From IMG/VR virus record IMGVR_UViG_3300017727_000199, positions 1 to 21,797 of that record: a stretch of DNA of 21,797 nucleotides; one strand, 5' to 3'. A program made the position numbers and the translations under genes. Of the stretch, positions 5,697 to 18,204 are shown in pieces (the first letter of the stretch is position 1; every line of letters begins with the position of its first letter). The notes beneath the pieces were generated by a model, which searched no databases, had not been told where the DNA came from, and worked only from the letters and a program-made list of their open reading frames with translations. The DNA comes from a virus.

Positions 5697-6344
5697 TTAA
5701 TCATCGAAAAGTTGACCGCCTGACGCAAAAAACTCAGCTCGTTGCTGATGCCCCATTGCCTCAAAGTCGGCCCTGCTTACTTCACTTGATCGTTCTTGGG
5801 CCCTGCCTTCTGAACGTGCGGCGCCGCCGCCAGCTGCCTGACTACCATCAACTAAGAACGGTAAACGCTCTTTGATGCTGCTTGTCAGGTCACTAAGTGT
5901 GGACACGGTCAATTGACCGCTATCGTCCGTCACTCGGATCTCCCCATCAACAAACGCAAGCCTCTGGCTTATCTGTTGCTGCAAGAGCGAGGCTTTTGCC
6001 ACGTCCTTGGTCAATCCACTTGCAAGTTTACCAGATTCTGCGTCAATGCGCGCCTGTATGCGCTCCTGCTGCATTTTCTCCATTTCCTGGCGGTATCTAT
6101 CAGCCTCAGACTTTTGTGCCTCAAACAGCTGTTTATAGTCGTTTTCGGCCTTTGCCTTTTCTTCAGCCTGTTGCCTGGCTAACTCTTGAGCCTCTTCAGC
6201 TTCGCGCTGCTTGGCCTTTTTCTCGGCTAACAGCTGGTCATTCTTGCTCTTTAAGCCAGACACCTGCTGCTCAACCATGCTCTGCAGCTGCGCTTCAATT
6301 GCCGCTTTCTGCTCCTCGTTTAGTTCGATACCTTCAATTTCCAT
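5697..6344 (-). CDS. Scaffolding protein
   Basis: This 215-residue, highly charged protein is dominated by an uninterrupted coiled coil from about residue 10 to 110 (repeats of KAKQREAEEAQELARQQAEEK type). A short beta-like section (FVDGEIRVTDDSGQLTVSTL) and a Gly/Ala-rich linker follow. Its C-terminus is SRADFEAMGHQQRAEFFASGG, a helix-turn-helix-like end of the kind that binds coat protein in phage scaffolds. It lies immediately upstream of the major capsid gene (11 nt gap). Scaffolds direct procapsid assembly and then leave the shell. AGAGGTGA is placed correctly before the ATG at 6344-6342. The family is recognised by composition and neighbours rather than conserved residues. Confidence 0.85.
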   Translation of the reverse strand: MEIEGIELNEEQKAAIEAQLQSMVEQQVSGLKSKNDQLLAEKKAKQREAEEAQELARQQAEEKAKAENDYKQLFEAQKSEADRYRQEMEKMQQERIQARIDAESGKLASGLTKDVAKASLLQQQISQRLAFVDGEIRVTDDSGQLTVSTLSDLTSSIKERLPFLVDGSQAAGGGAARSEGRAQERSSEVSRADFEAMGHQQRAEFFASGGQLFDD

Positions 6345-13885: not shown

Positions 13886-13898
13886 CCATTCTGGTGAC
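13881..13898. promoter_or_regulatory. Operator-like palindrome, copy 1
   Basis: On the plus strand GTCAACCA-TTC-TGGTGAC: a core ACCA-N3-TGGT with outer GTCA/GAC arms, overlapping the -35 box of the promoter. The same sequence apart from the 3-nt spacer recurs at 20065-20082. Further GTCAC copies at 13913-13917 and 13923-13927 lie just upstream of the promoter. Likely a repressor or activator site; the binder is unknown. Confidence 0.65.
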
Positions 13899-13926
13899 AT
13901 TTATTATATTTTCGTCACTTTTGTCA

Positions 13927-14313
13927 CTAATTGTATGAAATCCAGTTAAAGCCATCGGGGTCTGATTCCCATTGTCGATACTGCTCTCGGTAGAACTTGG
14001 CTATCTCTAGGCGCAGCTCCCTGGTCGTCTTAAATATCCCGTTCGACTTCTCTCTGAGAATTTCCAGGTGTCCAGGACCATACAGGCCATCAAGAAACAT
14101 CATGAAACGAGCAGGCGACTCTCCCATCTCGCGATGATGATAGCGGCACATGGTTATCGCGTTATCCATGGACCATCTCACGGCCTTGTTGCGTCTGCCG
14201 TATATGTGGCAGCAGTCAAGACCCTCTTGCTTGCCGCAGACCATACAGTGCTGATCTCGAGCCCTTACACACTTACTGAACCAGATATCAGCTGAGTCTC
14301 TTTTGATCGACAT
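13927..14313 (-). CDS. HNH endonuclease-like protein (NinG/Rap-like)
   Basis: A 128-residue protein starting MSIKRDSADIWFSKCVRARD. Zinc/HNH features: CMVC (C23, C26), CCHIYGRR (H36), then SMDNAITMCRYHH (N51, C56, H59, H60). The 'aD.wFs..vRarD...C..Cg' start is the pattern of phage NinG/Rap and related HNH proteins, which act on recombination or replication intermediates. The frame is open to 14397, but the start at 14313 is preferred because GGGAGG lies 6 nt upstream and the longer version overlaps the zinc-ribbon gene almost fully. It is the last gene of the replication/recombination operon; its stop lies against the second promoter region. Confidence 0.78.
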   Translation of the reverse strand: MSIKRDSADIWFSKCVRARDQHCMVCGKQEGLDCCHIYGRRNKAVRWSMDNAITMCRYHHREMGESPARFMMFLDGLYGPGHLEILREKSNGIFKTTRELRLEIAKFYREQYRQWESDPDGFNWISYN

Positions 14314-15829: not shown

Positions 15830-16263
15830 GTTCCCCCCTTGAGCTTCATGTATTCGGAATCAGCAGGGATTTTTAGCGTAATGCCGTGATCTGCTGCCCA
15901 TGCCCAAACCTGATCGAGATAGTCCATCATTTCGCCAGTTTTGAGCGCCTTAGTGCTCCTTAGTTGCCCAGGGATCACCGTGTTGTGGATTACTCGATCT
16001 TCAGTTCCTAGGAATTTGTGCTTGCAGAGATCTTTCATGTCGTTTTCGTTTATCTCGTACCCCTTGGCCGTAAAGTGCTCGGCCATCTCGCGATACCAGA
16101 CGTGCGAAAGTGCGTTTTGATTTAATGATCGTTTGTTTTGGTATGGCTTAGCCTCCCAGGCTACTGGCTTGGTGAAGTCCCACTCATTTTCTAGCCAGCG
16201 CTGAAAGAAAGCGACACGCTCCTTGATCTGCTGCCTGTCTTTAATGAGCCAGAATTGACTCAT
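15826..16263 (-). CDS. ninB: NinB-like recombination protein (lambda Orf family)
   Basis: A 145-residue protein with the NinB/Orf pattern: N-terminal MSQFWLIKDRQQIKERVAFF, a central NKRSLNQNALSHVWYREMAEHF (the conserved 'rs..qN..lw.ml.dis' element), KTGEMMDYLDQVWAWAADHGITL and the PADSEY ending. Orf proteins bind ssDNA and SSB and help load annealing proteins, replacing RecFOR. It is coupled by ATGA overlaps to the helicase gene upstream and the metallophosphoesterase gene downstream. The presence of an annealing protein and an SSB-like protein in the same operon fits. Confidence 0.88.
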   Translation of the reverse strand: MSQFWLIKDRQQIKERVAFFQRWLENEWDFTKPVAWEAKPYQNKRSLNQNALSHVWYREMAEHFTAKGYEINENDMKDLCKHKFLGTEDRVIHNTVIPGQLRSTKALKTGEMMDYLDQVWAWAADHGITLKIPADSEYMKLKGGT

Positions 16264-17204
16264 GTGCGTGGTAACTCGATGTGCATCGATCGATGGCTTT
16301 CGGCCTTTTTAAACGTCAGGCCCTTGCCTTCCCACAAATTGATGTGACCCTCATAGGGCCCATTTCGCTGCTTGGCCACTATCAGCTTTAAATCAGGCTC
16401 TGCCAAAATCAATTGCTCCTTGTCGTTGAGCTTCTCGCCCATGCTCTGGAACTGCTTAATCTTTTGTCGCCGTTTATTATGCCAAACTATGAACAATAAG
16501 TGTGCTTGATCGACAATTGTAGCGCCTCCGCGCACGTCAAACCGTGTTGGCACGTACTCGTCACCACCCGTCTGCGGCTTTCTGACGTGATGGACCAGGC
16601 AGATATGCACATCCTTAGCCTCTGCAATACCCAGCAGCTGATTCATGAATAAGCGCTCGCGCTCTGTGTCATCGGTAACGCCGCAGAATTGAAGGTTATC
16701 AACTAAGACAACCTTTACTCCTCGATCGGCCATGGCAATGATGCAGCCCAGCACCTCGAGAGGCTCGACACCGCCCAGGGCCCTGTACCAGTAGACGCGC
16801 TCCCCTGCCCACTTGAAGAAATCCTCGGCGAATCCCATGGGCGGCTGGTCGGCTGCTGCTGCCTGCTTGCACATCATAAAGGCCGTGTCGCTCATCTTCA
16901 TCTCAAACGATGCCAGGCCGACCTTCACGTGCTGCGCCAGGTGCGTCAGTACAAACGATGCGATGGTGCTTTTCTTGTGTCCGTTAATCCCGCACCAGAC
17001 ACTGACCTCGCCCGTTCGCAGTCTGACTTTGTCGTGCGTATCTATCCAGGGGAGCGGGTAGCCGTAGGTGACGGGGTCAGTTTGCACCCTATCAAAAAAC
17101 GCCTTCTCGAAGTGCTCGATCTTTACTACGTCAGCCGCCTCGCTCATGGCGAAAACTTCCTGCAGCTCCTTGTCCGTGAAATCCCTCTTTTCGATAACTC
17201 TCAT
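16260..17204 (-). CDS. DnaB-like replicative helicase / RecA-fold ATPase
   Basis: A 314-residue protein matching the DnaB C-terminal ATPase core. It has a helical start, a Walker A-like GINGHKKST (residues 72-80), ASFEM (catalytic-type E101), Walker B VVLVDNLQF (D169), a sensor segment LVHHVRKP (203-210), RGGATIVDQAH (225-235) and AKQRNGPYEG with a possible arginine finger. The P-loop is odd: the usual second glycine (GxxxxGKS) is replaced by lysine. No DnaB N-terminal domain or primase domain is attached, so loading probably relies on the initiator next door. ATGA overlaps on both sides place it between the O-like initiator and NinB. Confidence 0.9.
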   Translation of the reverse strand: MRVIEKRDFTDKELQEVFAMSEAADVVKIEHFEKAFFDRVQTDPVTYGYPLPWIDTHDKVRLRTGEVSVWCGINGHKKSTIASFVLTHLAQHVKVGLASFEMKMSDTAFMMCKQAAAADQPPMGFAEDFFKWAGERVYWYRALGGVEPLEVLGCIIAMADRGVKVVLVDNLQFCGVTDDTERERLFMNQLLGIAEAKDVHICLVHHVRKPQTGGDEYVPTRFDVRGGATIVDQAHLLFIVWHNKRRQKIKQFQSMGEKLNDKEQLILAEPDLKLIVAKQRNGPYEGHINLWEGKGLTFKKAESHRSMHIELPRT

Positions 17205-17797
17205 ATTTCTAGCTCTCTTATTGTTTCGTTTGACTCGAATTCATCCTCCCATCGCCGTCCATGTATCCAAGTCGATGCGTGAGGTATGTACCGCTGCTCA
17301 GTAGACCATGGATAAATGGCCAGTGCCTGCGTAGCAGCTTTTCGGTCTTTTTGGGTTAGTCGATCAAATGCAGTCTTGGCTTTTGCCTTGTTTGTCTTGC
17401 GTGGATAACCAGCCCAAAACTCATCAAATTCCTTATGGTTAATAATTGATGATTCATTGGTGGTTAGAGGTGTAATTTTACTCCTATCCATAGGTGTAGT
17501 TTTACACCTATCCATAGGTGTCATTTTACTCCTATCGATAGGTGTAATATTGACCCTATAGATGGTCGACTGTGAATAGCGCCGATGTCGAGTGATAAGC
17601 TCCTTTTCTTCTAGCACCTTTAGGGCTGTGATAAGCGTTTTACGGCTTACACATGACCGCCTGGTGATATCGTCATACGAAGGGTAGCAGTAGCCATCCT
17701 CGTCAGCTCTATCAGCCAGGGCGATTAAAACCGCCTTCTGCGTTGAAGTCACATCGATCACGACATTAAGCGCCCAATTAATAGCGGCAATACTCAA
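17201..17797 (-). CDS. O-like replication initiator with origin inside its gene
   Basis: A 198-residue protein. Residues 10-82 form a winged helix (TSTQKAVLIALADRADEDGYCYPSY, then ITRRSCVSRKTLITALKVLEEKELI) typical of phage replication proteins. Residues 84-115 are a repeated linker: ITPIDRSK, MTPMDRCK, TTPMDRSK, ITPLTTNE, encoded by the iterons. Residues 122-190 (FDEFWAGYPRKTNKAKAKTAF, ATWIHGRRWEDEF-like end) match the C-terminal part of O-like proteins, which contacts the helicase. The start is TTG (17797-17795), with AAGGAG 6 nt upstream and a TTGA overlap with the previous stop. No alternative ATG exists upstream of the HTH. Confidence 0.85.
   Translation of the reverse strand: MSIAAINWALNVVIDVTSTQKAVLIALADRADEDGYCYPSYDDITRRSCVSRKTLITALKVLEEKELITRHRRYSQSTIYRVNITPIDRSKMTPMDRCKTTPMDRSKITPLTTNESSIINHKEFDEFWAGYPRKTNKAKAKTAFDRLTQKDRKAATQALAIYPWSTEQRYIPHASTWIHGRRWEDEFESNETIRELEI
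17400..17465. other. AT-rich unwinding region and DnaA-box-like site beside the iterons
   Basis: The 40 bases at 17421-17460 are AT-rich (29 of 40) and directly flank the iterons on the downstream side of the initiator gene, where lambda has its unwinding element. At 17408-17400 on the minus strand TTATCCACG matches 8 of 9 bases of the DnaA box. A weaker copy, TTATCCATG, lies near 17308. These are sequence resemblances only. Confidence 0.5.
17466..17561. repeat. Four 24-bp iterons, putative replication origin
   Basis: Tandem units at 17466-17489, 17490-17513, 17514-17537 and 17538-17561, each with the form ATAGGTGT-N-ATTTTAC-N-CCTAT. Unit 2 holds a perfect 9-bp inverted repeat (ATAGGTGTA/TACACCTAT); the others have mismatches. 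The period is eight codons, so the protein linker repeats too. Iterons inside the initiator gene are the lambda ori design. Confidence 0.85.
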
Positions 17798-18204
17798 GAG
17801 GTCTCCTTCAATAGCTTATCGACAAACCCGTTTCGCCTGCCTCCCCTAATTAACGCTTGACGGTAACGCTCCTTGTCAGCCGCTTTGATCTTGCTGCCCT
17901 GCTCGACGTGCGCCTCGTAGATCTCGACGACATAATCATCCAAATCATCGCCCTTAGTGCTACGCATGGGCGGGAAATTTCTATCGGTTGGCGGAAATAG
18001 GTCAGAAACGTCTACGTGTACGGCATCGCAGACCTCAAAAACTGAGCACCCAGCGTAGCAATAGATCAGGATTCTCCCGTCGTTGCCCTCTGTAATGCGT
18101 AAAGATGGCGATCTGTCGTCATGTGCTGGACATTGCGCCATGTAGCTCCCCTTGCCGCTTTTGCGGTATGATGGGAGTCGATCAAGGAACTCTCCGAGAT
18201 CCAT
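17794..18204 (-). CDS. Stand-alone CHC2 zinc-finger primase-like protein
   Basis: A 136-residue protein with the zinc-binding domain of DnaG-type primases: CPAHDDRSPSLRI (C25, H28) and IYCYAGCSVFEVCDAV (C49, C53), a CHC2-type CHCC site with the typical 'PsL.i' strand between. A charged helical C-terminus follows. There is no RNA polymerase (TOPRIM) domain, so it cannot prime by itself. It may bind the origin or single strands, or it may be the split-off finger of a primase whose catalytic part lies outside the window. It is coupled to the initiator gene by a TTGA overlap. A strong AGGAGGG lies before the ATG at 18204. Confidence 0.85.
   Translation of the reverse strand: MDLGEFLDRLPSYRKSGKGSYMAQCPAHDDRSPSLRITEGNDGRILIYCYAGCSVFEVCDAVHVDVSDLFPPTDRNFPPMRSTKGDDLDDYVVEIYEAHVEQGSKIKAADKERYRQALIRGGRRNGFVDKLLKETS

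Follow-up and report, generated by a model that had tools for sequence, protein, structure and literature searches.

A putative phage replication origin in the linker-coding part of its initiator gene, with sequence-paired iteron classes and a recurrent AT-rich repeat tract

The window (the whole stretch of viral DNA analysed, 21,797 nucleotides) carries a replication initiator gene between a zinc-ribbon gene and a helicase gene, with an SSB-like gene and a Sak annealing-protein gene close to it, and we therefore regard the region as a replication module. The downstream neighbour matches AAA_25 (E=6e-7), DnaB_C (E=5e-5), and the primase/helicase PHROG 239 (E=4e-32), while the upstream neighbour matches Zn_ribbon_DnaG below the Pfam cut-off (E=2.5e-4) and the primase PHROG 6088 (E=1e-15). 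The genes and the domains of the initiator are as follows:

17794–18204, minus strand: DnaG-type zinc-ribbon protein, upstream neighbour
17201–17797, minus strand: O-like replication initiator, 198 aa, TTG start, with an HTH_36 winged helix, a linker, and a C-terminal domain
17537–17797, minus strand: winged-helix DNA-binding domain, residues 1–87 (structure prediction)
about 17606–17644, minus strand: predicted recognition helix, residues 52–64 (H52–64)
17204–17431, minus strand: helical C-terminal domain of the FWxxYPRK type
16260–17204, minus strand: DnaB/RecA-like helicase, downstream neighbour

Profile searches of the initiator returned HTH_36 above the Pfam cut-off (E=5e-15), with no Pfam match to RepA_N. 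The match to PHROG 270 (replication initiation, E=9.5e-37) extends over residues 6–190 and covers most of the protein, and PHROGs 1032 and 391 were also matched. In the predicted structure, the wing of the winged helix is formed by E68–71 and E79–82, and the pLDDT falls below 50 at residues 88–120, a stretch that takes in the larger part of the iterons and the beginning of the tract described below; these residues are predicted to form a disordered linker. A search of solved structures by sequence gave no match for the window initiator and none for lambda O. The fold search with the window initiator gave generic winged-helix matches only, in which 4pt7 and 5kbj, titled as initiator or Rep-DNA complexes, scored Z 9.5 and 8.8, level with unrelated winged helices.

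Four 24-bp units are located at 17462–17557 on the minus strand, corresponding to codons 81–112 of the initiator:

17534–17557, minus strand: iteron unit 1, core 17540–17557, the most degenerate, departing from the ideal core at 3 positions
17510–17533, minus strand: iteron unit 2, core 17516–17533 (repeat and core search)
17486–17509, minus strand: iteron unit 3, core 17492–17509 (repeat and core search)
17462–17485, minus strand: iteron unit 4, core 17468–17485 (repeat and core search), running into the AT-rich tract

The 18-bp cores are imperfect inverted repeats that follow each other in exact 24-bp steps. A preliminary description of this DNA had placed four tandem 24-bp units with inner inverted repeats in the initiator linker and had noted an 8-residue protein repeat; the coordinates are right, the pLDDT in this region is below 50, and the repeat is present in the translation of the four units (RVNITPID/RSKMTPMD/RCKTTPMD/RSKITPLT). 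No other self-repeat in the window is as strong as this array. When AGGTGTAANNTTACACCT was searched at up to 3 mismatches, the four iterons and one further site were found in the window, against a shuffle mean of 0.04. To compare the array with its coding requirement, the peptide was fixed and the codons were redrawn in 20,000 trials of synonymous resampling. The mean pairwise unit identity was 0.81 observed versus 0.62 resampled, and the inverted base pairs numbered 26 versus 13.7, with neither observed value reached in any trial (0/20,000). The peptide accounts for neither the identity of the repeats nor their inverted symmetry, and the gene thus holds tandem repeats beyond coding needs, as expected of in-gene iteron origins in general. 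The further site is a lone 3-mismatch core match, GGGTCTAATTTTACACCC, at 1577–1594 on the plus strand within a coding frame; it may have arisen by chance or represent another site for the initiator, like oriR in SPP1.

Relatives of the initiator were collected from viral-contig scans and graded from 99% identity downward. Almost every close relative has a 24-bp array at this place in the linker, in differing sequence classes; L031 has inverted repeats with no clear 24-bp period, and the arrays of L037 and L038 are weakened. The iteron classes are as follows:

Class A (window): AGGNGTAAAATNACACCT
Class B: CCCAATATNGGG
Class C: AGTGNNGAAATCAACACT
Class D: AGTACGGTTAAGCGTACT
Class E: AGTACGCAAATGAATACT and GGTATAGAATTAAATACT

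The class-A pattern occurs in six contigs of the viral collection, every one a known close relative. The peptide repeat varies between classes and the DNA architecture stays. In the distant actinobacterial homologues L073, L075, and L077, the arrays have a 22-bp period; periods that are not a multiple of three in these more distant initiators indicate that the DNA, not the peptide, is kept. The comparison of relatives had been proposed in the preliminary description, and it revealed no case in which the peptide repeat was retained with the DNA repeat gone.

Comparison of the iterons with the proteins encoded by the same genes showed that the two change together. For 31 distinct DNA-binding domains, iteron similarity, calculated from 5-mer spectra of both strands, correlated with recognition-helix identity at r=0.81, with the rest of the domain at 0.62, and with the C-terminus at 0.38 (Mantel, phylogeny-uncorrected). 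The partial r for the recognition helix given the rest of the domain was 0.71, with permutation tests that ignore shared ancestry. Among the first 80 residues, the best predictors of iteron class were residues 53, 51, 56, and 54, which lie at or beside the start of the predicted recognition helix, and the residues roughly match the classes (SRKT with A; NRKS/NQKT with B; TRH with C; TRN/SRN with D and E). L038 and L043 share 90% of their C-terminal DNA and have an identical 36-bp tract, with DNA-binding domains at 63% and iterons at 57%; conversely, L034 and L054 share 86% of the DNA-binding domain and 85% of the iterons and only 50% of the C-terminus. The DNA-binding domain and the iterons travel as a single cassette, exchanged among relatives separately from the C-terminal domain, with the switch at or near the tract. 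Since the array is kept while its sequence class changes with the recognition helix, the claim that the phage has its own initiator/iteron pair gains support, and across dozens of relatives the initiator protein and its putative DNA site change together. The exchange of C-terminal domains at or near the AACCATCAA tract was observed for the initiators of L038, L043, L034, and L054.

Downstream of the iterons in the gene lies an AT-rich tract of degenerate AACCATCAA repeats:

17432–17465, minus strand: AT-rich tract, candidate DNA unwinding element (near-identical gene L021, family spacing, AT content)
17457–17465, minus strand: tract copy AACCACCAA
17446–17454, minus strand: tract copy AATCATCAA
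17432–17440, minus strand: tract copy AACCATAAG

The three copies, with 1, 1, and 2 mismatches to AACCATCAA, lie in three reading frames. In the family, where the copies fall in different frames, one DNA motif reads as TIN/TIK, EPS, and NHQ. The segment 17420–17479 is 72.5% AT, among the richest of the window, and lies 3' of the iterons, on the same side as the A-rich stretch past the annotated lambda O iterons; the lambda-like placement that had been claimed for it therefore holds. An adjacent AT-rich tract whose motif is kept in the family is what in-gene iteron origins would carry, its unwinding role being putative here. AT content peaks elsewhere in the window, with the richest 40-mers (77.5%) at 13895–13942, away from the putative origin.

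A tract of the AACCATCAA type recurs in many phage initiator genes next to unrelated iterons. The spacing between AACCATCAA-like 9-mers in the family is 11 (50 times), 12 (17), or 14 (6). Scanning for three-copy tracts matched 68 viral contigs at 11-bp spacing and 29 at 10-bp spacing, and among 70 non-redundant tract-spanning proteins, 51 matched PHROG 270 and 47 matched HTH_36. A few tract-spanning proteins (10/11-bp AACCAYCA tract; alignment A2) match not HTH_36 but DnaA_N, DnaT, or another domain, suggesting that the tract may be common to different initiator types. Just 5' of the tract, a repeat array beyond synonymous resampling (p≤0.01) was present in 38 of the 61 testable genes, with periods that include 22, 17, and 14 bp and split 15/13/10 modulo 3. 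In a set of 44 genes from two bacterial orders, picked solely by PHROG 270 similarity, at least two copies at 10–12 bp were found in 11 genes against 0.87 expected (5 for the reversed motif), and all 11 tract-bearing genes use two or three frames. The control scan at 12-bp spacing matched 114 contigs, mostly low-complexity or antisense repeats, with PHROG 270 in 12 of 76 proteins, and raw contig counts are for this reason no proof of an 11-bp preference. The reversed-motif control matched 14 contigs and is contaminated, because ACCACCAA belongs to the C variant of the motif. Taken as sequence evidence, the scans indicate a tract class across phage initiator genes, with boundaries unsettled given these imperfect controls. 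In the open-access literature, searches by tract sequence retrieved only papers on unrelated matters, and searches for in-gene origins returned no description of the AACCATCAA tract. In L083, a three-copy AACCATCAAAT tract was observed at 5818–5848, right past a stop codon and not within a long open frame.

Three other readings of the locus were weighed. The preliminary description had taken a near-perfect DnaA-box-like site as part of the origin, and the 9-mer TTATCCACG is indeed present at 17400–17408 (minus strand), matching a DnaA box at 8 of 9 positions; but it coincides with the codons of the conserved Tyr-Pro-Arg, and sites within one mismatch of TTWTNCACA number 22 in the window, about one per kb. 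In the relatives L023–L026, its counterpart is CTATCCCCG, CTATCCGCG, TTATCCGCG, or ATATCCACG, and the site decays in relatives that are 74–87% identical, the YPR codons being conserved and the DNA not. We rejected this 9-mer as a functional DnaA box, and a DnaA-dependent origin built on one unconserved single-mismatch site is hardly tenable. That the repeats belong to the peptide, or arose by recent slippage duplication and have no function as DNA, would fit a unit of 24 bp, which is divisible by three and is translated as an 8-residue repeat, and a recent tandem duplication could alone raise identity above the synonymous expectation; it would explain neither the inverted symmetry nor the comparative pattern, in which the peptide changes between classes as the architecture stays, the iterons covary with the recognition helix, and the periods of wider initiators are spread over all three values modulo 3. 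We consider this reading very improbable. That the repeats serve the initiator as autoregulatory operators or in copy control/incompatibility, and are not themselves the origin, would suit a winged-helix protein, since regulators with this fold, which is common to Fur, MarR, and CRP, typically use inverted-repeat sites. The array, however, lies mid-gene, 240 bp past the start codon and at no promoter position, it precedes the recurrent tract of AT-rich repeats, an order seen in known origins, and the surrounding module is a replication module, making this explanation unlikely.

We conclude that 17432–17557 is very probably a phage replication origin, located where its initiator gene encodes the linker. 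This reading of the sequence is based on the inverted symmetry of the array beyond synonymous expectation, its place in the disordered linker of an initiator of the PHROG 270/HTH_36 type, whose gene adjoins primase-like and helicase genes, the same-place arrays of different sequence in relatives, the tracking of the recognition helix by iteron similarity, and the single cassette formed by DNA-binding domain and iterons against swapped C-termini; the non-multiple-of-three periods and three-frame tract of wider initiators, together with the experimental precedents for in-gene origins in lambda, SPP1 oriL, pSK41, and the HTH_36 chimera pPR9, further argue for it. GC skew showed no turn at the putative origin and is uninformative, as the 21.8-kb record is a fragment whose genes almost all lie on one strand.

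The arrangement is of a known kind, and the iteron/helix classes and the shared candidate opening tract make it a variant. An origin inside the initiator gene has its experimental precedent in lambda (PMC7466680). The origins in lambda gene O, phi80 gene 15, and P22 gene 18 resemble the putative origin in having in-gene iterons with inner inverted repeats followed by an AT-rich tract, and in iteron number (four annotated in lambda, four gp15 sites in phi80, and four in the window). Their initiators belong to PF04492 (Phage_rep_O), whereas the window protein is HTH_36 with no PF04492 match, and the two share some distant PHROGs (678, 391, 345). Comparison with lambda, P22, and phi80 bore out the claimed difference of the iteron sequence and 24-bp period from those of lambda; no AACCATCAA tract was found in the initiator genes of these three phages. 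In SPP1, oriL in gene 38 comprises direct repeats and an AT-rich unwinding element within the initiator gene, bound by gp38 (PMC6316719); it is likened to the window by description and differs in that SPP1 has a second origin, oriR. In pSK41-type RepA_N plasmids, the Rep boxes lie mid rep gene, encode the linker, and are bound by the winged-helix N-terminus, and in plasmid pPR9 the N-terminus and origin of a pSK41-like Rep have been exchanged for a pfam13730 (HTH_36) N-terminus with its origin (PMC5703833). Both resemble the window in their mid-gene, linker-coding repeats and winged-helix N-terminus (pPR9 by description), and the pPR9 exchange is the same kind of event as the cassette swaps in the window relatives; they differ in being plasmids, with antisense RNA copy control, and pSK41 also in its RepA_N N-terminus. 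The profile match over most of its length places the window initiator with the PHROG 270/HTH_36 type represented by the replication protein of Lactococcus phage BK5-T, whose gene carries an annotated repeat region at the corresponding position; BK5-T differs in a 45-bp repeat period, an AT-rich host version, and the lack of AACCATCAA copies.

On the model of lambda, SPP1, and RepA_N plasmids, the winged-helix N-terminus would bind the 24-bp inverted-repeat iterons, probably as one dimer per iteron, and the bound initiators would stack into a nucleoprotein complex. This complex may open the neighbouring AACCATCAA-type tract, after which the C-terminal domain may recruit a helicase, either the product of the neighbouring gene or a host helicase, for loading and initiation. 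In plasmids, Rep proteins bind the iterons and also the repeated ssDNA elements that lie in the unwinding region (PMC4081077). The prospect that AACCATCAA at every 10–12 bp (or TTGATGGTT, read from the opposite strand) acts sequence-specifically in strand opening or helicase loading, as an element common to in-gene origins with unrelated iterons and initiator types and read by a common factor, is nearly balanced in our judgement and tilts slightly against. DnaD recognises the ssDNA pattern TnnTnnT or paired TnnT motifs (PMC10201434), and since every TTGATGGTT holds TnnTnnT, DnaD-like ssDNA recognition is, as a speculation, one candidate reader.

To our knowledge, the origins of most phages are unmapped. 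The pairing of recognition helix and iteron is readable from sequence and provides a natural set of initiator/iteron pairs with differing specificities, by which a protein-DNA code is opened to direct testing. Should the AACCATCAA tract prove to be a genuine common element, it would be a simple sequence flag for origins in many phages and prophages, and would raise the question of which factor recognises one tract next to iterons that are unrelated. The genes also contain segments where several reading frames bend to one DNA motif. A further arrangement was observed in the Acetobacteraceae-type phage and prophage initiators L071, L074, L316, and L340, which carry 21-bp arrays on GGAACCTCGTTCC followed by AACCACCAAT tracts.
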